Positions 51,253-60,262 of a DNA stretch of 64,000 nt are shown here, piece after piece (positions within the stretch are counted from its first letter, which is position 1; each line of letters opens with the position of its first letter). The notes beneath the pieces are model-generated. The model ran no database searches, was not told the origin of the DNA, and was given only the letters and a program-made list of their open reading frames with translations. Source of the stretch: Chloroflexota bacterium (GTDB lineage Bacteria; Chloroflexota; Anaerolineae; Anaerolineales; Anaerolineaceae); NCBI GenBank assembly GCA_016887485.1, contig CP069394.1, forward strand, positions 1,674,001 through 1,738,000, written 5' to 3'. The position numbers were made by a program, and so were the translations under genes.

Positions 51253-52281
51253 TTAAGTCTCAGGCAATACTAAGTTGTTCTCTAAGTCCGTTTTTATTTC
51301 ATCAAACAGTCGCATTCGGCCTTCAGAAAGCAATCCAGACTCCAAATCCAATAGCACAACAGCGCCAGGCACCTGTTGTCCACCGATCCCAGCCATCACA
51401 TCACCCCAAATTGCTGTTAATGCTGGTGAGGGGTCAATCGCCACCGTCCCCACCCAATTACTGCGGGCCATATCGGGGCTCTTCCCGCCAACCACTTCAA
51501 TACCATAATCCGCCAAATTACCCAGCAGGTCCGGGGTGACTAGATCACCGTGCACATAAACCACCTGCACGCCCAGGTTTGTCAACGATTCGGCTGCATT
51601 TTTGAGAGTAATGGCATCGCTATTCAAAGGTAAAGTCATCAGCTGCGGGTAGGAGTTATAAGGCGGATATTGCGACTTACAGAGGCCGCAATAGAAACGA
51701 GCACCGACCTCATAGGCGTTTTGGGCTTCCGCTGTGAGCGGAATATCCGATGGAATCAGACCAGCGACCTTATAATCCGATGTCACCAGGGCAGCCAGAT
51801 AGCCGCCCATGAAGGACTGCCGCTCTTCTTCCACCAGGGGGTCACCAATCACGCTCAGGTTTCCGCCTGCCACAGCATTTGGCTGGTCGATCGCGATAAA
51901 CTGGATGGCCGGTGAAGAAGGCGCCAGCGCGGCCAAATCAATCCCAGCACCCAGGCCCACCACAACTTTGACATTTTCAGTCAGTTGGTCAGGCGTCAGG
52001 TTATCCACAACCGTCAGGGTCAGCAAGGATTCCGTGGCGAGCGCTTGGAGGGTGGTCTGTAGCTGCTGCAGGGTTAACGCGTCGGCATCCCCTGATACAG
52101 CCAGCAGAACCGTTGGCGCACCAAGAGTCGGCGTGGGAGTAGATTGAGGTACAGTTGGGATAACAGTCTCCGATCCAACCACCTCAGTCGGGTTGCCATT
52201 CGGCTTACAAGCCGAAATTAGACTGGCGAGAAGGATCAAGAGAACGATAAAGACATGCGTATTTCGATTCATTTTATACAT
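51253..52281 (-). CDS. BMP/Med-like lipoprotein substrate-binding protein
   Basis: 342 residues. The lipoprotein signal ends in LISAC (acceptor Cys about residue 25), followed by a Thr/Pro/Ser linker. The body resembles the BMP/PnrA family of class I periplasmic binding proteins, which bind nucleosides or other small molecules (LSVIGDPLVEEERQSFMGGYLAALVT, then VHGDLVTPDLL). No permease or ATPase gene is adjacent, so it may be an orphan receptor. Start at 52281 or 52272 is uncertain. It is convergent with the sugar transferase. Confidence 0.8.
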   Translation of the reverse strand: MYKMNRNTHVFIVLLILLASLISACKPNGNPTEVVGSETVIPTVPQSTPTPTLGAPTVLLAVSGDADALTLQQLQTTLQALATESLLTLTVVDNLTPDQLTENVKVVVGLGAGIDLAALAPSSPAIQFIAIDQPNAVAGGNLSVIGDPLVEEERQSFMGGYLAALVTSDYKVAGLIPSDIPLTAEAQNAYEVGARFYCGLCKSQYPPYNSYPQLMTLPLNSDAITLKNAAESLTNLGVQVVYVHGDLVTPDLLGNLADYGIEVVGGKSPDMARSNWVGTVAIDPSPALTAIWGDVMAGIGGQQVPGAVVLLDLESGLLSEGRMRLFDEIKTDLENNLVLPET

Positions 52282-52445: not shown

Positions 52446-53666
52446 ATGAGCCTGCCCAGCAGCGAACCCCTTCCAGATGATATTCACGAACTTCCCCCCG
52501 CCCGTCAGCGCCATCTCCGGCGGATGCCTCGGGCTGCTTCTCCTGCTGAGTGGGAAATCCTATTGGAATCCCTCCTCAACCTGACCCGCCCAACGCTTGA
52601 ATTCTTCCTTCTGGCCCTCCTGGGGACGGTCGTCAGCGGTGCCGCGCTTTATTTCAACGAACCATTGCTACTAATTGTAGCCTTAGTCCTCCTGCCCTTT
52701 ACTAATCCCGTTTTCAACCTGGCGCTCTACCCCGCCAGTCGTAAACTGGGCTTTGCTTTGAAATCACTGATCAGCCTGATCGTTCCCATCATCCTATCCC
52801 TGGGTGCTGGCATGTTGGTCGGCTGGTTTGCACCCGAAACGGCCTTTGACCAGCTCGCCCTGACCACCTTCAACGTACCCTGGTGGCCCAACCTGGCCGC
52901 AGTGGCCGGCAGTGCCTTTTTCTGCAGCCTGATCCTGATCCGGCAAGACCGTCTCCCCCGTCTGGCTGGGGCAATCCTCTCCTATGAAATCTTCCTCCCG
53001 CTCACCTTGGCTGGCTTTGGCCTGATCGTTGGGGCACCGGCTTTCTGGCCGGGCGCTTCACTGACCGCCCTGCTCCACCTGGCTGTCGCCCTCCTGGCAG
53101 CCACCCTGGCCTTCATCGTGATCGGCTTTGCACCTAAAACCCTCTTTGGCTGGTCACTCAGTCTGTTTCCTGTGGTGCTCACGTTGCTGTTCCTGACAGC
53201 AGCCACCCTCCTGTCCGGTCAGATCGTGCTGCCTTGGGAATCCAAAGCCCTCACGCCCACCCCGACCGAAGCAATCGCGCTTGTGGAAGAAACCGACCTG
53301 CCCACAGCCACTCTGGCCCCAACCGAGACACCACCGATCTCCACCGCCACCCTGCAGCCCACCGTGACCCAAACCGTCACACCGGAATGGACCGCCACCC
53401 CATCCGCCACACCTACCCTGGAGCCAACCGTTGTTTATGGCGTGATCGTTGCCGAAAATGGCGCTATCGTGCGGGAAGAGCCCAGCACGACAGCCCTTGT
53501 GGTCTCATACGTGAATGATGGTGATCTGGTCACGTTGATCGGGCAGTACCTCTCCGGGAACACCCTCTGGTATCAGGTGGAAACGGAATATGGTGAGGTC
53601 GGCTGGATGCTTGGATCATTGATCCAGACGCCCACTCCCACGCCGTCGCCGACCCCGGGTGAGTAA
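52446..53666 (+). CDS. Multi-pass membrane protein with C-terminal SH3b domain
   Basis: 406 residues. A basic N-terminal tail precedes about seven membrane helices (about 48-260); the segment FNEPLLLIVALVLLPFTNPVFNLAL resembles DUF389-type proteins, weakly. A Thr/Pro/Glu-rich linker (about 268-333) follows, then a bacterial SH3b domain (VIVAENGAIVREEPSTTA...GDLVTLIGQ...WYQVETEYGEVGWM) and a PTPTPSPTP tail. The SH3b domain should be outside the cell, where such domains bind cell-wall material. Function is unknown. It is convergent with the six-gene operon. Confidence 0.75.
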   Translation: MSLPSSEPLPDDIHELPPARQRHLRRMPRAASPAEWEILLESLLNLTRPTLEFFLLALLGTVVSGAALYFNEPLLLIVALVLLPFTNPVFNLALYPASRKLGFALKSLISLIVPIILSLGAGMLVGWFAPETAFDQLALTTFNVPWWPNLAAVAGSAFFCSLILIRQDRLPRLAGAILSYEIFLPLTLAGFGLIVGAPAFWPGASLTALLHLAVALLAATLAFIVIGFAPKTLFGWSLSLFPVVLTLLFLTAATLLSGQIVLPWESKALTPTPTEAIALVEETDLPTATLAPTETPPISTATLQPTVTQTVTPEWTATPSATPTLEPTVVYGVIVAENGAIVREEPSTTALVVSYVNDGDLVTLIGQYLSGNTLWYQVETEYGEVGWMLGSLIQTPTPTPSPTPGE

Positions 53667-53704: not shown

Positions 53705-54757
53705 TTAAACCCCGAGGATCACCAGATCCTGCTGGGGCACCTGGACCTGCGCGCCGGAAGCTAGTTCCACGGTCGTCGTGGGGAAGGCAAAACCACTTTC
53801 AAACATCAGTGGTTCTTCCAAAGCTCGCACCCGCCCGATCTGGCCCATAGCGGCACCGGTCAGAATACGAACCCGCTGCCCAACAGCTAAACACGCCTGT
53901 GGAGCCATTGCACTCTCAGGTTTCTCCCCCTCGCCAGGGATGACCAATTCCGGCCGCTCCCCAAATCGATCCAGTGTGAAGTTTGCATTCAAACTCGCCA
54001 GTTTATCCTGGCATCCCTGCAACAGCTCCCATACCCAGGGATCAACCTCACCGGCGCCAAACCCGGAAATGACCAAGATCGGAATGCCGGCGTCCTGAGC
54101 GGATTGCTTCAAAGCCGGTGACAGCCAAAATGTGACCAATCCTGCCAGTTCATATTTGCGGATCAGGGTAAAAACCTCAGCGCTGTCAACAACGGGGATA
54201 ACGAGAATCTCACCACTGGCAAGTTCCGTTTCCTCCCCATCTTCAGTCTCAAGTGTATCAAGCACTCGCAGCGGACTCTCACAAATGCCGCCGTTACCCC
54301 ATTCACCCTGTACCAGGCTCCCCTCAGCTCTTATTTTTACGCCAAATTCAGGGTAAATATCCTCCACCACGCCCGGCATCCCCGCCTGGACGGTAACCTT
54401 TAACTCTTGGGTGGCGATCACGGCCTTGCCATGGCTGAAATCAATCAATCGGCCATCCGCTGGGGCTCGCACAACCCTCGTAAGAGTCCCCTCACACTGC
54501 GCAAGCAGGTCGCCTTCTCTGAGGGCGTCCCCCGGCTTTCGCAGGGCACATTCATCCGCTTCTTCGGCACTGACGCCCAAACCCCGGTCCACGGCCAACG
54601 TGATCACGCCCGCGGGCAAGATCGCCTCAGCGAGTACATCCCCTGCCTGGACAGCATCACCGACCGCCACTAACACCCGCCCTGCCAGCGGCAGACGACG
54701 AGTGCGTTGGATAAGTACATGGTTCGAGATCTGAAGGACATCCACCATTTTCGCCAT
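53705..54757 (-). CDS. Uncharacterised protein with lipoyl-like and KOW-like segments
   Basis: 350 residues, no family recognised with confidence. The N-terminal half has biotinyl/lipoyl-like hairpins (AGRVLVAVGDAVQAGDVLAEA and APADGRLIDF), without an obvious lysine attachment motif. The C-terminal third contains a KOW-like turn (VGQRVRILTGAAMGQIGRV). It lacks a signal peptide and is probably cytoplasmic. It is the last gene of a six-gene operon, starting 1 base after the MutL-like gene, so it probably works with that ATPase. Confidence 0.7.
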   Translation of the reverse strand: MAKMVDVLQISNHVLIQRTRRLPLAGRVLVAVGDAVQAGDVLAEAILPAGVITLAVDRGLGVSAEEADECALRKPGDALREGDLLAQCEGTLTRVVRAPADGRLIDFSHGKAVIATQELKVTVQAGMPGVVEDIYPEFGVKIRAEGSLVQGEWGNGGICESPLRVLDTLETEDGEETELASGEILVIPVVDSAEVFTLIRKYELAGLVTFWLSPALKQSAQDAGIPILVISGFGAGEVDPWVWELLQGCQDKLASLNANFTLDRFGERPELVIPGEGEKPESAMAPQACLAVGQRVRILTGAAMGQIGRVRALEEPLMFESGFAFPTTTVELASGAQVQVPQQDLVILGV

Positions 54758-54758
54758 C

Positions 54759-56507
54759 TCAGCCCCCCAATATCCACTGCCAGCGCTGGATCAGGGCAAT
54801 CCGGACTTCGTCATCCTCCGGTAATTGGATGGGCCGCCCTCTTGCGTCAACTACCAGTCCAAGTGCGCCGCCGGTCACCTTCAAGCGCCCCCCGACACCC
54901 GGCCCGCCAAAACCGACATCTGTCTGCCGTTCAGGTTTAAGGATCATCACAGCCGGCTCATTCACTTGAATCACCACCCGCTTCAACGAAGCCTGGGTGA
55001 TCTCCACATCGAAATTATTCCCGCCTTCTTTCTGCACTTCAACGGTCAGAATAAGCTCACCCGCCGGTGCGGGGCTGCGGGGCACAATTACGGTTCCCAA
55101 ATTCTGAAACACATCCGTTTCCAGCAGATGCACTGGCAAAACCGGCAGACTCGGTGCCACAGCACCCAGCAGCGGTAAAATCTGGAATTTATCCAACACG
55201 ACAGTGGTCACCCCACTGGGTTGAATGCCATCCAGCACCATCAGCAGGCTCTTACCCGGCGTGGGCGCTGCCGTAAGAAGCTCCCCGCTGGCGATGATCG
55301 GCTCAAAATGGGCTGTCAGTCCACATTCGGGATCAAATACTGCCTGCAGATAGCAGGCCGCCAGGTGTTGGGCGGTTTTATGCAAACGGTAATGACCGAG
55401 GGCATGCTCAATCGCATTTTCCTCAGCCGTGATCGGCACGGCAGCCGGATGACTTAATCGGTTCCAAAGGTAGGCCTGAGCCTGGTCTTCATTGATCTCC
55501 TCTGCCAGCCAGCGGTGAAATACATCAAAGCTCGAGGTGCCTGCTTCCGCCACCAGTTGTGACTCCGTTGGATCGGCAACAAGCAATGCCTGGCCACCCA
55601 GACCCAATGCCAGCCGTGTCCATCCCCCGCCAAGATCCACTGCAGCCACCCCACGGTTCGAATCCGTTGGGGAAGAAGCCCGACTGAGAAAGCGCATCAT
55701 CCGGTTCAGCCCGAAGCTGAGCGTGGAAACCTGACCTTCAGCGATCCGAACCAGATCCCGCCAGCCGGGAAAGGTCTCCTGCCAGCGGCGGCAGATGATC
55801 TCATCAGCCACTGCCTGCGCCGGGGTCAAATCGGTGTAGCCCGCCAGGGGCTGCAGGTTAGGCACGAACCAAACCCGGGTATAGGGCTCCAATCGGCGTT
55901 TACCAAGTTCCTGCATCTCCGGATTCCCGGCGAAAATCACATCCGGGCGGATATCTGGGGGAAGCAGCAAGCACAAGGTCCGCGCCAACTCAATCCAGGC
56001 CCCTACAGCATCCTCATTCCCAGCGTTTTCACCGCCGGTGATCAGGAGGAGTTCAGGCCGAATTTCAACAAGCTGATCCAATAGGTCAGGCTGACAAGCC
56101 AAATCCTGCACGCCATAAACGCCCGACAAAGCCAACGGCAGAGAAGCCGCCCAGGCCCTTCCGGCTGTCAGCGACCCGGCCTCGCTCAAACCCAGGATAA
56201 CCGTCCTGAGGCGTGGCCCGGCATCGGATGCCAGAATGATCTGGTCCAGCCCCTGCCCTGTTGAGGTGAAAGGCCGAATCAGGCTGCCATCTTCATTCAA
56301 CAACTTGCGGCCGGTTGTTTGCTGCAATATTTCCAGGGCATTCCCTACGCCCTCGCCAAGGTGCCGTCCCTCACCGAGGCTGGCCGGCGCGCTTGCCTGA
56401 CCCAAAAGGTGATATTTACCCTTTTGCAGCCCAAACAAAGCCGCCCGCGTGTTCACTGCACCCAGATCCAGCCCGAGGACAACCTGTGAAGGATGGGAAT
56501 AGTCCAC
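54759..56507 (-). CDS. MutL-family (glutamate mutase L-like) actin-fold ATPase
   Basis: 582 residues with a GTG start overlapping the previous stop (TAGTG). ASKHA/actin-like fold: phosphate-1 loop VLGLDLGAVNTRAALF (about 9-24), phosphate-2 loop AAVDLGGGWTRLALG and a late adenosine-side ASGELL followed by MVLDGIQPSGVTTVVLD, as in MutL proteins of glutamate mutase operons. MutL is thought to assist B12-dependent mutases, but no mutS or mutE gene and no B12 enzyme is nearby. Here it is embedded in an operon of membrane proteins, so its role may differ. Confidence 0.85.
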   Translation of the reverse strand: MDYSHPSQVVLGLDLGAVNTRAALFGLQKGKYHLLGQASAPASLGEGRHLGEGVGNALEILQQTTGRKLLNEDGSLIRPFTSTGQGLDQIILASDAGPRLRTVILGLSEAGSLTAGRAWAASLPLALSGVYGVQDLACQPDLLDQLVEIRPELLLITGGENAGNEDAVGAWIELARTLCLLLPPDIRPDVIFAGNPEMQELGKRRLEPYTRVWFVPNLQPLAGYTDLTPAQAVADEIICRRWQETFPGWRDLVRIAEGQVSTLSFGLNRMMRFLSRASSPTDSNRGVAAVDLGGGWTRLALGLGGQALLVADPTESQLVAEAGTSSFDVFHRWLAEEINEDQAQAYLWNRLSHPAAVPITAEENAIEHALGHYRLHKTAQHLAACYLQAVFDPECGLTAHFEPIIASGELLTAAPTPGKSLLMVLDGIQPSGVTTVVLDKFQILPLLGAVAPSLPVLPVHLLETDVFQNLGTVIVPRSPAPAGELILTVEVQKEGGNNFDVEITQASLKRVVIQVNEPAVMILKPERQTDVGFGGPGVGGRLKVTGGALGLVVDARGRPIQLPEDDEVRIALIQRWQWILGG

Positions 56508-57205
56508 TAGAGACCTCCCAGGAATTGACCAATCATCTCGCCAACGACTGCAATCCGATCGATAAATGCCAACAACGCGGTGGAAAACACTCCCGCAAAA
56601 ACCGCACCCAGAGTGATCCCCAGGAACACCTCACCAACCTTACTGAGAATCTGCATTGCACGTGGGCGTTTGTCTTCATCCCCGCGGTTCAACTTCTTCA
56701 GCGGTTGGCCAAAGTGGAAGTAGCTTAATGTGCCCACAACGCCTAAAATCATCACGCCTGCATCCAGAATCCGCACCCAAACGAGCTGCGGGTCGGCATA
56801 GATCCGGTAGGGGTCAAAAGCATCCAGCACGGCCTGTCCCTGCGGCACCATCGTCCCAAAGACCGCCCCACCGATGGCAATCGCGGCGGACAGCCCCGCG
56901 AGAAAAGCCAGTGGGATCCGCGAAAGCTGCGACAGGTGCGGGATTTGTCCAATCAACAACAGAGAGCCCAACACGATCGGGATCAGCAGCCACAGCCTTT
57001 CCGACCAGCTTGCGTCCGCCATCGGCCAGATCAAGTGCGGCAGCAATACCCGGTTCACCAGCAGCACCACCAGATAACCTGCCGTCAGCCCGATCAGCAG
57101 GTAGGCCGCCAAACGGAAGAAGAGGCTGTCTTTGATCAGGTAGCTCAGGACCATCACCGTCAGCAGGAAACCAATCACGCCCCAAATCACCGCGTTAAGT
57201 GTCAT
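56507..57205 (-). CDS. Hypothetical multi-pass membrane protein
   Basis: 232 residues with about seven hydrophobic helices and little else; no family recognised. A basic loop (LKKLNRGDEDKRPRAMQ) lies before the last two helices and is probably cytoplasmic. Its start overlaps the previous stop by four bases (ATGA) and its stop overlaps the next start by one, so its translation is coupled on both sides. The conserved look of the hydrophobic segments and the tight packing argue that it is real. Confidence 0.75.
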   Translation of the reverse strand: MTLNAVIWGVIGFLLTVMVLSYLIKDSLFFRLAAYLLIGLTAGYLVVLLVNRVLLPHLIWPMADASWSERLWLLIPIVLGSLLLIGQIPHLSQLSRIPLAFLAGLSAAIAIGGAVFGTMVPQGQAVLDAFDPYRIYADPQLVWVRILDAGVMILGVVGTLSYFHFGQPLKKLNRGDEDKRPRAMQILSKVGEVFLGITLGAVFAGVFSTALLAFIDRIAVVGEMIGQFLGGL

Positions 57206-58902
57206 TTGCCACCTCGCGGTCGTTTTTGGGAACGTTTATTGGGCGCAAACAAGGCACCAAGGATCATGGCAACCATCAGGATCACCACACCCACCTGGTA
57301 GGCTTGCCACCGCTGAGGCAGGTCCGAATCATTACCGGAGAGGTCTGCCAAGGCGACGGCGTCACGGAAGCCGGACACCACACCAACGATTTGGCCCGAA
57401 GCGTAATATGGCTGCAAAAGCGGGGCAGCCTGCGAAGTCGCCAGCACGCCTAAAGGCATCTCGGGCGCGCGGGCTGTGAGCTGTTCAATCCAGGTCTGAG
57501 CCCCTTCAAAATTATCAGAAAGGACCAGAATCGCATCATAGTCATAGTCAAGCATCGCCCGAACGGGTTCAGGCAACCCGGCGAAAGTTTCCCCACTGGT
57601 AAGTCCGGTGGCAACGCCATAAGCGCCGTAGCTGGCCATCGGGAAATAACCAATATCGGTGTAGTCAAAGTCCAAACCACTCAAAAGGTCATCCGCCAAT
57701 AAAGGACCGGAGGCAACCGACGACGCAACATAGATCTGCCCCGTCCTATCCGCCAAATCGGTCAAGATCGGTTCTGCCACCGCTGTCATTTCGCTGACAT
57801 AGGCTGGTTGATAGTCAAAGACCAACAGCAAGTCCGAATCTTCTGGGAGCGCATCCGCCCAATCCACCAGGGCCATTGCGCCATCAGTGGCTTGCGGCCG
57901 GGCCAGACCCAGCGTGCTGCCGCTGAATAATGCCAAACTGATCCCCACCACCAAAATCAGCAGGAACAGCATATTGATCCACTGCACGCCGACTTTATAA
58001 ATCCGTTTACCGGCGGGATGGTCCGCTTTTTCATTGTTAATGATCGTGGAGAGTAAATCCGCCTGATCGCTTTCTTCACGGGTCAGACTTAAAGACTGGG
58101 GTGTCACCCGCGGCTCTAAAACCACCTTGATCTGGCGGGTGATGTCTTCGGGCGGCAGCTTTTCCCAACCTGTTTCAATTTCCTGGGTTTTATCACTGCC
58201 ATCGCCCCCCTCTTCATCCTTAGGTGGGTTATCTTCCAGTGCCACCAACCAATCCAGCAGGCTCCGGCTGGCAGCATTGGGGCCCTCCTCGGGGTCCATG
58301 ACGCCATGCGCCTTACGAATACGGGTGAGCCAATCTGAGTGATCGGCTTCTTCCGGTTCAGGTGCAGGTTCCGGTTCAGGTTCCGACATTTCAGGTTCTG
58401 CACCGGTCTCAGCCGACTGCTCCGGGAGGATCTCATTCCCAGCCGCCTCATCACGGGCTTCATCCCGCAATTTCTGGATCCAGCTCTCAAAATCGCTGTG
58501 CTTTTCCGCACCTTCACCGGCTACAGACTCCTGGGCGGCCTCAACCCGCCTGATCAGGTCACCAACTGAGTCATCTTCCACCTGAGCGCGCTTGCGGACC
58601 GCATCCAGCCATCCGGGCGTCTGGTTGGGGGCATCAGTCATCTCAGAATCGTCATCCAAATTGATCTCGGGCAGGCCTTCCGGGTCGATCTCGTACTCGA
58701 TATCCTCCAGCTTTAAACCCTGCAAGAGGTCTGGTAAGTCATTTTGTTCTTCTGGGAGGAGGTCCATCGCCTCTTCGCCCTCATAAGGCGGCTGAGGTTC
58801 TTCAACCGGTTCCACCCCCACCAGTGAGGTCTGGCAGATCCGGCATTGTTCTTCTTCAAGGGGATTTCGGGCGCCGCATTCCGGGCAGAGCAAGTAAGCC
58901 AT
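57202..58902 (-). CDS. Zinc-ribbon membrane protein with large acidic cytoplasmic region
   Basis: 566 residues. Residues 1-25 are a zinc ribbon (CPECGARNPLEEEQCRIC). A long acidic, low-complexity region follows (about 30-300). One membrane helix (about 308-330, MLFLLILVVGISLALFSGSTL) leads to an external domain of about 200 residues, with an alpha/beta look (LLLVFDYQPAY, AILVLSDNFEGAQTW). A second helix near the C terminus and a basic tail end it. No family is recognised. It is coupled to its neighbours by overlapping codons. Confidence 0.78.
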   Translation of the reverse strand: MAYLLCPECGARNPLEEEQCRICQTSLVGVEPVEEPQPPYEGEEAMDLLPEEQNDLPDLLQGLKLEDIEYEIDPEGLPEINLDDDSEMTDAPNQTPGWLDAVRKRAQVEDDSVGDLIRRVEAAQESVAGEGAEKHSDFESWIQKLRDEARDEAAGNEILPEQSAETGAEPEMSEPEPEPAPEPEEADHSDWLTRIRKAHGVMDPEEGPNAASRSLLDWLVALEDNPPKDEEGGDGSDKTQEIETGWEKLPPEDITRQIKVVLEPRVTPQSLSLTREESDQADLLSTIINNEKADHPAGKRIYKVGVQWINMLFLLILVVGISLALFSGSTLGLARPQATDGAMALVDWADALPEDSDLLLVFDYQPAYVSEMTAVAEPILTDLADRTGQIYVASSVASGPLLADDLLSGLDFDYTDIGYFPMASYGAYGVATGLTSGETFAGLPEPVRAMLDYDYDAILVLSDNFEGAQTWIEQLTARAPEMPLGVLATSQAAPLLQPYYASGQIVGVVSGFRDAVALADLSGNDSDLPQRWQAYQVGVVILMVAMILGALFAPNKRSQKRPRGGK

Positions 58903-59519
58903 TAGCGCTCACCTCCCGGAGAGTTGATTGAAAACAGGTAGCGCAGGCCCATCAACAGCCCGCCCAATGCCATCCCGATCAGCACGCCCCGCGCGCCCAC
59001 CATCGGCAGCCGCTGGAAAAATCCCAGCACCTGCTCGCCGACCGAACCGGAAGCAGTCCGGATCAGGCCGAGATTGAATACCAACGACAAGAATGCGGAA
59101 GCCATGAAAGCAATCGTCAAAGGGGTCCAGCCGCGGGTGCGGATCAGGCGCAAACTGGTAAAAAGCAAGGTCGCAGCCAGGATCGCCAGCAGGCTGGTCT
59201 CAACCGGTATTTGGATTTTGAGGATCAGGTCCCGATATAAAGGGCTTTGAGGGGAAAGCACAAAACCGGCCACCAATGAAAGCAGGAAGGCAGCCAGCAA
59301 GACAACACTGTAAATCCAGCCTTTCTTGCGCTGGATGATATTGCGAACGTGGAAGGCGGCCAGGTAACCCATCCCGATTAGACCGCCCACAGCCACCAGT
59401 ACAAGCCCCCAATCGAAGATCAGAGTCAGCGTGGGGCCAAGCTGGTCCTGGAAGAAGAAACCAGCCAGAACGGTCAGCCCGACCAGCAGAGTAATGGCAG
59501 CAAAGATCAGTTTCTTCAC
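58902..59519 (-). CDS. Hypothetical multi-pass membrane protein
   Basis: 205 residues from a GTG at 59519; the frame extends further, but this start overlaps the previous stop (GTGA) like the other junctions of the operon. It has about six hydrophobic helices, with short basic loops (RNIIQRKKGW, LRLIRTRGW). No family is recognised. The stop codon overlaps the next start (TAATG). Confidence 0.75.
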   Translation of the reverse strand: MKKLIFAAITLLVGLTVLAGFFFQDQLGPTLTLIFDWGLVLVAVGGLIGMGYLAAFHVRNIIQRKKGWIYSVVLLAAFLLSLVAGFVLSPQSPLYRDLILKIQIPVETSLLAILAATLLFTSLRLIRTRGWTPLTIAFMASAFLSLVFNLGLIRTASGSVGEQVLGFFQRLPMVGARGVLIGMALGGLLMGLRYLFSINSPGGER

Positions 59520-60262
59520 AGCACACCCACCGCTTTCAGTATTGCGCCGATCACCAGAGCCAGGATCAGGCCAATCCGCAGCCAATCCTCCGCCTGAGCC
59601 GCTGCAAGGTTCTTGGGTTGCGGGTCCAACAAAGCCGGGGCCATGAAAACTTCTTCACCGAGAAGGATATTTTGCACATTGAGCAGAAGGGTGGCTTGCG
59701 ATGCCATCGAACCAGCCGCCGAGAAAGCCTGTCCACGCTGGTCATGGATATTCTTGACGGAAATGGCCGATTCCGGGCCAAAATCACCAAGGATCACCAA
59801 CGTGCCGTAATCCTGCATCTTGAGGTCCGACATCAAGCCGGAATTAAAGGAAAAGGTCGTCGGCCCATATACCACTGGTTGTATTTCGGAGGAAAGCAAT
59901 TGTTCTGAAAAACCGGTTTCATAACGCCCGTGAATGATCTGCCGGGCAAAAACAGCCAGGATGCCGGCATTGGCTGAAACGGTTTGCCGGCCATCCGCCA
60001 GAGTCTCCCCATCCAGCAGGGCATCATAATTTGCCAGGCCGGAAAGCCCCAGCCCGGGATAGGCCCGTGACCAGAGCGCATGGCCCAACACCACTTCCTG
60101 CCGCCTCCCCTGTTCAAGGGTAGCAGTGCGGGAGCGGTTCAAATGGCGGACAAAGTCCTGCCGCCGCAAGGCAAGCTCACGCGGCTTGACGATCCAGGTT
60201 AACGCCGCAAGAAGGATGGCTGCCAGCCCGATAATGATCCAGCCCACCATGGCCCAGGTCAT
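59516..60262 (-). CDS. Hypothetical membrane protein, first gene of six-gene operon
   Basis: 248 residues. One N-terminal membrane helix (about 5-25), a cytoplasmic-looking or external alpha/beta region (about 30-225, with GHALWSRAYPGLGLSGLANYD and LVILGDFGPES), and a C-terminal helix (about 230-247). I do not recognise the family with confidence. AGGAG precedes the ATG. It opens the operon that ends with the MutL-like ATPase and the KOW-like protein; the region upstream (60263-60473) should hold the promoter. Confidence 0.75.
   Translation of the reverse strand: MTWAMVGWIIIGLAAILLAALTWIVKPRELALRRQDFVRHLNRSRTATLEQGRRQEVVLGHALWSRAYPGLGLSGLANYDALLDGETLADGRQTVSANAGILAVFARQIIHGRYETGFSEQLLSSEIQPVVYGPTTFSFNSGLMSDLKMQDYGTLVILGDFGPESAISVKNIHDQRGQAFSAAGSMASQATLLLNVQNILLGEEVFMAPALLDPQPKNLAAAQAEDWLRIGLILALVIGAILKAVGVL

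Follow-up and report, generated by a model that had tools for sequence, protein, structure and literature searches.

A conserved, apparently undescribed gene set of membrane proteins and a predicted actin-like ATPase in Chloroflexota and distant bacterial phyla

Six neighbouring genes in a Chloroflexota bacterium (assembly GCA_016887485.1) belong to a conserved, apparently undescribed set encoding membrane proteins and a predicted actin-like ATPase, and this set recurs in several distant bacterial phyla, so a basic piece of the cell machinery of these bacteria seems still to be unexplained. The genes, here called A to F, lie on the minus strand of the window, i.e., the whole 64,000-nucleotide stretch that was analysed (contig CP069394.1, positions 1,674,001 to 1,738,000). 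A is a DUF6754 protein, B, C, and D are membrane proteins, E is a MutL/GlmL-family protein of the ASKHA (actin/Hsp70-like) type, and F combines barrel-sandwich-like and KOW-like regions. A seventh small protein, G, often precedes the set in relatives but was not found in the window's genome. The function of the set has not been shown.

Gene order and distribution

An earlier note, made from the sequence alone, had described six coupled genes at this locus, and this observation holds. Reading the sequence, we found that A and B overlap by 4 bases, B and C by 1, C and D by 4, and D and E by 1, while E and F are separated by 1 base, exactly as the note gave them. B starts at the GTG at 59519, and a longer ORF from a TTG at 59585 is not needed. 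The tightness is not universal, however. The A/B overlap of 4 recurs in 26 of 39 loci with both genes, but other gaps in relatives are larger, reaching 77 bases (D/E) and 101 bases (E/F); these values are rough, since the script that measured them chose start codons by model fit and put the window's own E/F gap at 10 instead of 1.

The note had named loss of gene order in relatives as an outcome that would count against it. On the contrary, 37 of 40 fetched loci from the same order carry all six genes in this order, and the other three reach a contig end. In 81 loci (the window, 40 order-level, and 40 phylum-level), the six families recur in 50 to 81 loci each, whereas the largest of the other neighbour clusters are found in 20 (this is G, part of the system) and 19, so the order is far beyond chance. 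We would like to note that the 40 order-level loci were picked from 59 positive genomes and the 40 phylum-level loci from 127, for long contigs and spread rather than at random. A-B-C-D forms a rigid block, in order for 38/39, 13/14, 35/37, and 23/24 A genes in four sets of loci, with E and F beside it or elsewhere, and the set stays syntenic at about 20 to 45% identity.

The set extends far beyond Chloroflexota. DUF6754 was detected in 90 of 101 sampled Armatimonadota, 76 of 80 WOR-3, 31 of 119 Planctomycetota, and 7 of 119 Bacillota genomes, each sample holding the centre genome, and in 0 of 14 control genomes. Within Chloroflexota, the 44 DUF6754-positive genomes of 201 are all among the 127 with an E-profile match. 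The 44 is a lower bound, because Pfam PF20539 misses divergent Chloroflexota A proteins (genome G031 is negative, yet its locus L056 has A by our own profile), and the 127 include partial matches and some short GlmL-type proteins; by hand count of the listed rows, about 116 have a match that reaches the C-terminal domain of E. Elsewhere, 38 of 39 DUF6754-positive genomes have E, with genome G307 being the miss. F was found away from E in 7 of 7 genomes with a long-tailed E, and is present in 8 of 8 Armatimonadota, beside E in two of them. Of 16 tested WOR-3-phylum genomes, picked mostly for several DUF6754 copies, 13 have one E match and 2 to 7 DUF6754 genes. In contrast, six Bacillota-type genomes carry 3 to 6 E-family matches, short ones and fragments included. 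Genes neighbouring the set across phyla, named by eye, gave no common theme (glycine dehydrogenase, TldD-like, TsaB/RimI, polysaccharide export, two-component regulators, and others).

Several sequences were left out of the protein alignments: those of loci L047, L052, L060, and L068 (truncated or split) and L035 (layout as L032), L062 from F, L063 from E, and L049, L051, L062, L065, L066, and L070 from C. L060 and L068 were left out of the C-domain alignment, and two of 22 G proteins from alignment A12. A gene set with this spread, whose ATPase family is in 59 of 61 close and order-level relatives and which has no assigned function, is likely to serve a basic envelope or cell-organisation task.

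Predicted features of the six proteins

Gene A (59516..60262, minus strand) encodes two TM helices around a Rossmann-like domain that is cytoplasmic by the positive-inside rule. It is a member of Pfam DUF6754 (PF20539; 31.5 bits, cut-off 27), a family that exists in Pfam without a function, and 50 of 50 aligned homologues match that family at E<=1; A of locus L199 scores 390.5 bits. The AF2 model has a pLDDT of 90.3, and Foldseek returned no hit at or below 1e-3. In other phyla, A has a secreted FN3-like N-terminus, as judged by eye. Gene B (58902..59519, minus strand) and gene D (56507..57205, minus strand) each encode a 6-TM protein of no known family, predicted N-in for B and N-out for D. 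B, C, and D have no family over cut-off in Pfam or NCBIfam.

Gene C (57202..58902, minus strand) encodes, in order, a zinc ribbon, a disordered acidic region, a TM helix, a predicted extracytoplasmic Rossmann-like domain, and a second TM helix. The ribbon (58834..58887, minus strand; CPEC...CRIC) gave weak hits to zinc-ribbon families, with eL40-type ribbons best in the profile search. The disordered region (58237..58617, minus strand) holds four W-[LI] motif copies, of which one is a strict PxWL; in many relatives the motif is expanded to tens of LPxWL copies. The ribbon and LPxWL arrays were gained by C in Chloroflexota, but the arrays are weak in the window itself. The domain between the two TM helices (57304..57921, minus strand) yields an AF2 model with a pLDDT of 87.0 whose nearest folds are CODH/ACS epsilon and RCK, while Foldseek gave two hits at or below 1e-3, with TM-scores near 0.3, so the fold matches of A and C are generic. 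The opposite predicted orientations of A and C rest on a charge rule that is tied or weak for some homologues (B of locus L106, A and C of L209 and L156) and that gives N-in for D in L198, L209, and L156.

Gene E (54759..56507, minus strand) matches Pfam MutL (PF13941) with 117 bits, against a cut-off of 27, and has an extra C-terminal domain with a DARGRP motif (54831..54848, minus strand). The D and R of this motif are invariant in 59 of 59 proteins of an alignment not selected by it. They are also present in 167 of 168 long E proteins, the other being a gap, although many of these were found through a pattern search that itself held DARG and returned 80 of 349 relatives. Of the same 168 proteins, the phosphate-1 Asp is kept in 149, the phosphate-2 Asp in 145, and the adenosine-motif Gly in 167, so some copies may not hydrolyse ATP. 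The structures of E residues 465-582 and of F were not predicted. Gene F (53705..54757, minus strand) has barrel-sandwich-like domains, an alpha/beta region, and a KOW/SH3-like C-terminus. The window's F has only sub-threshold barrel-sandwich and KOW hits, but 28 of 64 aligned F proteins match RnfC_N and 28 of 64 match KOW at E<=1 (best 7.6e-07 and 1.4e-06).

Solved-structure searches with profiles of A, B, C, D, E, and F, and with E and F of locus L188, found no relative beyond KOW, barrel-sandwich, zinc-ribbon, or chance hits; alignment-based listings do not exclude families that are not listed. We also asked whether the paired subunits share an origin. For A and C, order- and phylum-level profiles gave only a TM match, whereas wider profiles gave a full-length, in-register alignment with a probability of 30% and P 9.9e-5, so a common origin is only suggested. 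No homology was found between B and D.

Relationship of E to mutase accessory proteins

The second outcome that the note had set against itself was that the MutL-like gene regularly sits with mutase genes in relatives. This was not observed: no mutase was found beside the window's E or at the related loci, and glutamate mutase E is over cut-off in only 1 of 61 relatives, with 6 more weak matches below it. Of seven short MutL-family loci from the same phylum, six have a mutase or B12-binding gene beside them by Pfam (we saw none at L262), but those short GlmL/Or-4 proteins are separated from the long E by one 100/100 branch of the tree. E does share the ASKHA core of the family, as residues 11-464 of the window's E match positions 2-448 of the 450-position Pfam model. 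However, E is about 580 to 600 instead of about 450 aa long, carries the DARGRP domain, has A-D and F as neighbours instead of a mutase, and scores below the NCBIfam cut-offs for GlmL, Or-4, and the GlmL family (NF040745, NF040744, TIGR01319). The window's E reached 30.7 of 475 and 21.4 of 600 bits, with the GlmL-family model not listed, and E of L188 reached 222 of 475, 212 of 600, and 166 of 204. We therefore reject the reading of E as a mutase accessory, and a "glutamate mutase L" label on the long proteins, a likely misreading, would rest on the family alone.

With both of these outcomes absent, the note's interpretation of a possible undescribed membrane system with a cytoplasmic ATPase is supported, with two amendments. 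The note had argued that strict coupling usually means a stoichiometric complex, but this is not a good argument, since gaps vary in relatives and E-F can lie away from A-D. Additionally, E-F also occurs without A-D, so that one complex of six is probably a cytoplasmic module plus a membrane module. That it is a membrane machine remains inference.

Possible roles of the system

What our analysis demonstrates is the gene set, its co-occurrence, and the split between E and GlmL; the rest of the following is inferred, and we hold it only tentatively. In this view, the operon encodes most of a conserved envelope system of seven proteins (A-G). E would be an actin-fold ATPase that works at the cytoplasmic membrane and, with F and usually G, forms an ATP-dependent cytoplasmic module that assembles, gates, or drives the membrane unit A-B-C-D. 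As A and C are both TM-Rossmann-TM proteins of opposite predicted orientation (A domain inside, C domain outside), the unit would carry a state or force across the membrane between an inner and an outer alpha/beta domain, with B and D as the polytopic core. The zinc ribbon and, in many members, the long LPxWL array of Chloroflexota C would be a likely multivalent cytoplasmic scaffold. The physiological role is unknown, and we favour a structural or assembly role of the FtsA/PilM type over metabolism. The synteny, spread, co-occurrence, conserved ATPase motifs, and topology described above support this reading, as does the single E match in most of the tested WOR-3-phylum genomes, where one ATPase appears to serve several membrane units. 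Nevertheless, there is no biochemical or genetic datum, and 22 of 40 phylum loci hold E-F or C'-E-F without A, B, or D, so E-F has a role that does not need A-D beside it. The multiple E-family matches in the six Bacillota-type genomes are also unlike the one-energiser pattern. In its boldest form, which is unlikely but not excluded, this would be a seven-component trans-membrane machine, core to whole bacterial phyla, in which a GlmL-related actin-like ATPase with a new C-terminal domain acts through two Rossmann-type domains placed on opposite sides of the membrane by an inverted pair of 2-TM and 6-TM subunits, i.e., a new class of ATP-driven membrane complex that is neither ABC, AAA+, nor a known actin-like system.

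The comparison with FtsA and PilM rests on the actin-like fold, the membrane partner proteins, and a possible membrane-targeting tail. The 9 of 162 E proteins with a tail over 60 aa all end in a basic-aromatic stretch (GFFRRK type) that resembles a membrane-targeting sequence, as do 8 of 9 listed soluble C' proteins. The window's E has no membrane-binding tail, and 153 of 162 E proteins lack one of that length, so these data do not settle whether a membrane-targeting C-terminus belongs to E, and neither filament formation nor ATP-dependent recruitment of partners was assayed. No FtsA or PilM family match over cut-off was found for the window's E or for E of L198 (FtsA 12.2 bits for the latter), and B, C, D, F, and G match no divisome or pilus family over cut-off in the proteins scanned. 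An anti-phage defence island is rejected, given the core-gene distribution and the absence of any PADLOC model match for the six proteins at E<=0.1.

Searches limited to open PMC papers found no description of the system: no paper names DUF6754 or PF13941, and for MutL/GlmL, Chloroflexi, and Armatimonadota no title or abstract opening names the system. The MutL of one retrieved paper (PMC5167688) is the DNA-repair protein, which is unrelated.

A possible but unlikely alternative is that A-B-C-D is a transporter or exporter, with B and D as the pore and A and C as the inner and outer gates or substrate-binding domains, and that E-F is its shared ATP-driven energiser, as one energising module serves several transport units in ECF systems. 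The two 6-TM and two 2-TM subunits, the opposite predicted orientations of A and C, and the resemblance of their folds to ligand-binding RCK and NAD/FAD-type domains are in line with this, as are the tandem A-B-C-D copies (three in a row, locus L247) in one WOR-3-phylum genome with a single E match (G337). However, we know of no transporter energised by an ASKHA ATPase, and there is no ABC ATPase and no homologous ECF subunit among the six. B and D of the window and of L188, and B of L199, match no family over cut-off and no solved structure (chance-level hits only in one search), and E-F persists without A-D at many Chloroflexota loci.

Less likely still, E could be a chaperone or reactivase, as proposed for its GlmL relatives and established for EutA/DdrA-type ASKHA proteins, with A-D and F as client subunits of an unknown, perhaps cofactor-dependent, membrane enzyme. 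E shares the GlmL family profile, though below its cut-off as given above, E of L198 also passes the Hydantoinase_A cut-off (24.3 of 22.9 bits), and F resembles NqrA/RnfC-type and A NAD/FAD-type folds. In contrast, besides the lack of a mutase at these loci, the single relative with mutase E over cut-off, and the 100/100 branch, the DARGRP domain is at least as conserved as the ATP motifs, which a mere reactivase would not predict. The weakest reading, for which no nucleotide-binding motif was shown and which rests on common Rossmann-like arrangements at Z near or a few units above the background quoted by the search program, is that A-D with F is a redox or nucleotide-sensing membrane complex in which A binds NAD(H) or a nucleotide in the cytoplasm and signals to the outside, the nearest folds of A including Sir2 (Z 11.7), phosphoheptose isomerase GmhA (Z 10.4), CODH/ACS epsilon, transhydrogenase domain III, and RCK, and those of C likewise CODH/ACS epsilon and RCK.

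Conservation of the six-gene set

The six minus-strand genes and their junctions, with consecutive overlaps of 4, 1, 4 and 1 bases and a gap of one base, are as the earlier note had described, and its observation is confirmed. In transcription order we call them A (60262-59516), B (59519-58902), C (58902-57202), D (57205-56507), E (56507-54759) and F (54757-53705). A belongs to Pfam DUF6754 and E to Pfam MutL, B, C and D match no family over cut-off, and F has weak barrel-sandwich and KOW similarity that is clearer in some homologues.

Conserved gene order in relatives had been named in advance as a test of whether the six genes form a system, and it was found. E has a match in 59 of 61 genomes of the genus, family and order (the window's own included), of which 54 have one match and five have two, by fragments or a weak second match. 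In 30 short loci retrieved from these genomes, the window's among them, C, D and E stand together in 30 and F follows in 27. In 40 longer loci that we picked from the positive genomes, all six genes are in order in 37; the exceptions (loci L047, L060 and L068) each reach a contig end, and in L060 C and D are also split. Identity to the window is about 20 to 45% for most proteins of A and E, so this is not recent inheritance. As an internal control, in 81 loci the six families are each found in 50 to 81 loci, whereas the largest other gene family, apart from a small protein G discussed below (20 loci), is in 19. An SH3/DUF389-like protein convergent with F (52446-53666, plus strand) and a lipoprotein-like protein with a weak PnrA-type hit (51253-52281, minus strand) also recur near the operon, in 19 and 16 of the 81 loci, respectively (clusters c7 and c8).

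Beyond the order, DUF6754 was found in 44 and a profile of E in 127 of an even sample of 201 Chloroflexota genomes, and a comparison by hand showed that the 44 are all among the 127. Both numbers need care, since the Pfam model PF20539 misses divergent Chloroflexota A proteins and the 127 include partial matches and some short GlmL-type proteins. Of 40 loci fetched at phylum level, 14 hold A-B-C-D-E (7 of them with F next to it), 13 hold a zinc-ribbon protein, C', with E and F, 9 hold E-F, 2 hold C'-E, 1 holds B-C-D-E and 1 holds E alone. A scan of named genomes with an E alignment led by the protein of locus L106 found 349 relatives, and the best 80 of these include Armatimonadota, Bacillota, Planctomycetota, WOR-3, Latescibacterota, Neomarinimicrobiota, Poribacteria and two MAGs titled Thermoproteota, at 34 to 45% identity in the best segment apart from L106's own record. 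Their loci hold the same families, often in the order G-E-F-A-B-C-D. In the two Thermoproteota MAGs (loci L171, L176 and L266, the last from the genome of L171), E, F and parts of A-D occur, although a binning error is not excluded. DUF6754 was then found in 76 of 80 genomes of the phylum of locus L199 (WOR-3), 31 of 119 of that of L198 (Planctomycetota), 7 of 119 of that of L156 (Bacillota) and 90 of 101 of that of L168 (Armatimonadota), and in none of 14 control genomes. Across four sets of loci, with contig ends counted as misses, A is followed by B, C and D in order in 38 of 39, 13 of 14, 35 of 37 and 23 of 24 cases, and E by F in 39 of 40, 28 of 40, 67 of 84 and 4 of 4.

Linkage without adjacency was also examined. 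In the 7 phylum genomes whose E has a long tail and no F beside it, F lies elsewhere in all 7. The E proteins of loci L108 and L110-L115, whose F lies elsewhere in the genome, carry a tail of 87 to 154 aa, and that of L115 holds LPDWL-type motif copies like those of C. F is also present in 8 of 8 Armatimonadota tested, beside E in genomes G607 and G661. In all, 17 of 21 genomes tested have F, the misses being G185, G231, G165 and G213. Of 39 DUF6754-positive genomes of other phyla, 38 have E. So A-D, E and F travel together as a gene set, but E and F also occur without A-D. The seventh small protein, G (about 80 to 130 aa), precedes A or E in many loci and is in 46 of 61 relatives at E<=0.001, but was not found in the window's genome. 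An eighth, a small membrane protein with a PH-like look by eye, precedes G (in L240, L241, L243 and L245) or A (in L156, L205 and L215) in Armatimonadota and some Bacillota-type loci; of the two scanned, the one from L240 matched no Pfam family and the one from L205 none over cut-off.

Relation of E to GlmL

The other test set beforehand was whether the MutL-like gene regularly sits with mutase genes. Short MutL-family proteins of 443 to 483 aa do occur in the same phylum and even the same genus. Of seven such loci, six have a mutase or B12-binding gene beside them by Pfam, namely ornithine aminomutase in genomes G004 and G007, MutE in G031 and twice in G123, and a B12-binding protein in G111, while for G225 we saw none. 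Two members of the window's genus (L263 and L264) carry ornithine 4,5-aminomutase subunit genes with their own short MutL-family gene. These short proteins are, however, not E: in a tree of 43 proteins the 36 long E proteins and the 7 short ones fall on two sides of one branch with 100/100 support, though several long branches make finer placing unsure. In addition, glutamate mutase E is over cut-off in 1 of 61 relatives, with six weaker matches below it. We conclude that E is not GlmL.

In 168 long E proteins, the phosphate-1 Asp is kept in 149, the phosphate-2 Asp in 145 and the adenosine-motif Gly in 167, and D and R of the C-terminal DARGRP motif are kept in 167. Many of these proteins were found through a pattern that holds DARG, but in an alignment of 59 order- and phylum-level proteins found by profile, the same D and R are the only invariant residues. 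The added domain is thus at least as constrained as the ATP site.

Predicted membrane components

To investigate the membrane part, we applied hydropathy and the positive-inside rule, which in the window give A two TM helices around a cytoplasmic domain, C two TM helices around an external domain, B six TM helices with N-in and D six with N-out. Some homologues are tied, and D comes out N-in in L198, L209 and L156, where the helix count also differs. In other phyla A begins with a signal peptide and an FN3-like region (by eye), which agrees with the prediction for A. The AlphaFold2 models of A and of the C-terminal part of C are good (pLDDT 90.3 and 87.0), and both are Rossmann-like. They share nearest folds such as CODH/ACS epsilon and RCK domains (for A, Sir2 at Z 11.7, rmsd 3.3, 141 aligned, then GmhA at Z 10.4; for C, CODH epsilon at Z 9.2, rmsd 3.6, 145 aligned), which shows no function. 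That A and C are distant paralogues in inverted orientation is only suggested.

In Chloroflexota, the cytoplasmic part of C holds a zinc ribbon and a disordered region with copies of P-[DAPSEG]-W-[LM], of which there are 476 in 62 C proteins of at least 400 aa against 7.1 expected from shuffles, with up to 41 in one protein. The commonest form is [LV]-P-[DA]-W-L-[RQ]. The window's own C has one strict copy and three looser W-[LI] copies, so the array is weak here. Such arrays usually mean multivalent binding, which for C is an inference. Eight of nine listed soluble C' proteins and the nine long-tailed E proteins end in basic-aromatic stretches such as GFFRRK or FLDVIRSWF, which suggests membrane attachment.

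Possible mode of action and neighboring genes

The earlier note had read the operon as a possible undescribed system, perhaps a membrane machine with a cytoplasmic ATPase, and this interpretation is supported, although that it is a membrane machine remains an inference. What the analysis itself shows is the gene set, its co-occurrence and the separation of E from GlmL, while the working of the system is inferred and no activity was demonstrated. We think it most likely, though tentatively, that E, F and G are an ATP-dependent cytoplasmic module at the membrane and that A-D is the unit on which it acts. A single E match beside 2 to 7 DUF6754 genes in 13 of 16 tested WOR-3-phylum genomes, picked mostly for several copies, fits a shared energiser or organiser; genomes of that phylum's sample have up to 7 DUF6754 genes, and in one (L247) three A-B-C-D blocks stand in tandem. 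Bacillota-type genomes with 3 to 6 E-family matches fit it less. Transport, a reactivase for an unknown enzyme and, least likely, a nucleotide sensor are rivals that our data do not exclude. Pfam knows two of the families, but no described system that we could find among open PMC papers holds them together, and we regard the set as categorically new by its genes and architecture.

In some order-level genomes the gene after F encodes a protein with an N-terminal TM helix, a Thr/Pro-rich linker and a C-terminal LPxTG-like end (LPNTG, LPATG, LPDTG; also LPQSG and LPTAG) followed by a TM helix and a basic tail. Seven members were looked at, those of L036, L037, L051, L053 and L054 (cluster c11, in 12 of 81 loci) and of L059 and L063 (cluster c55). 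This gene does not follow F in the window.
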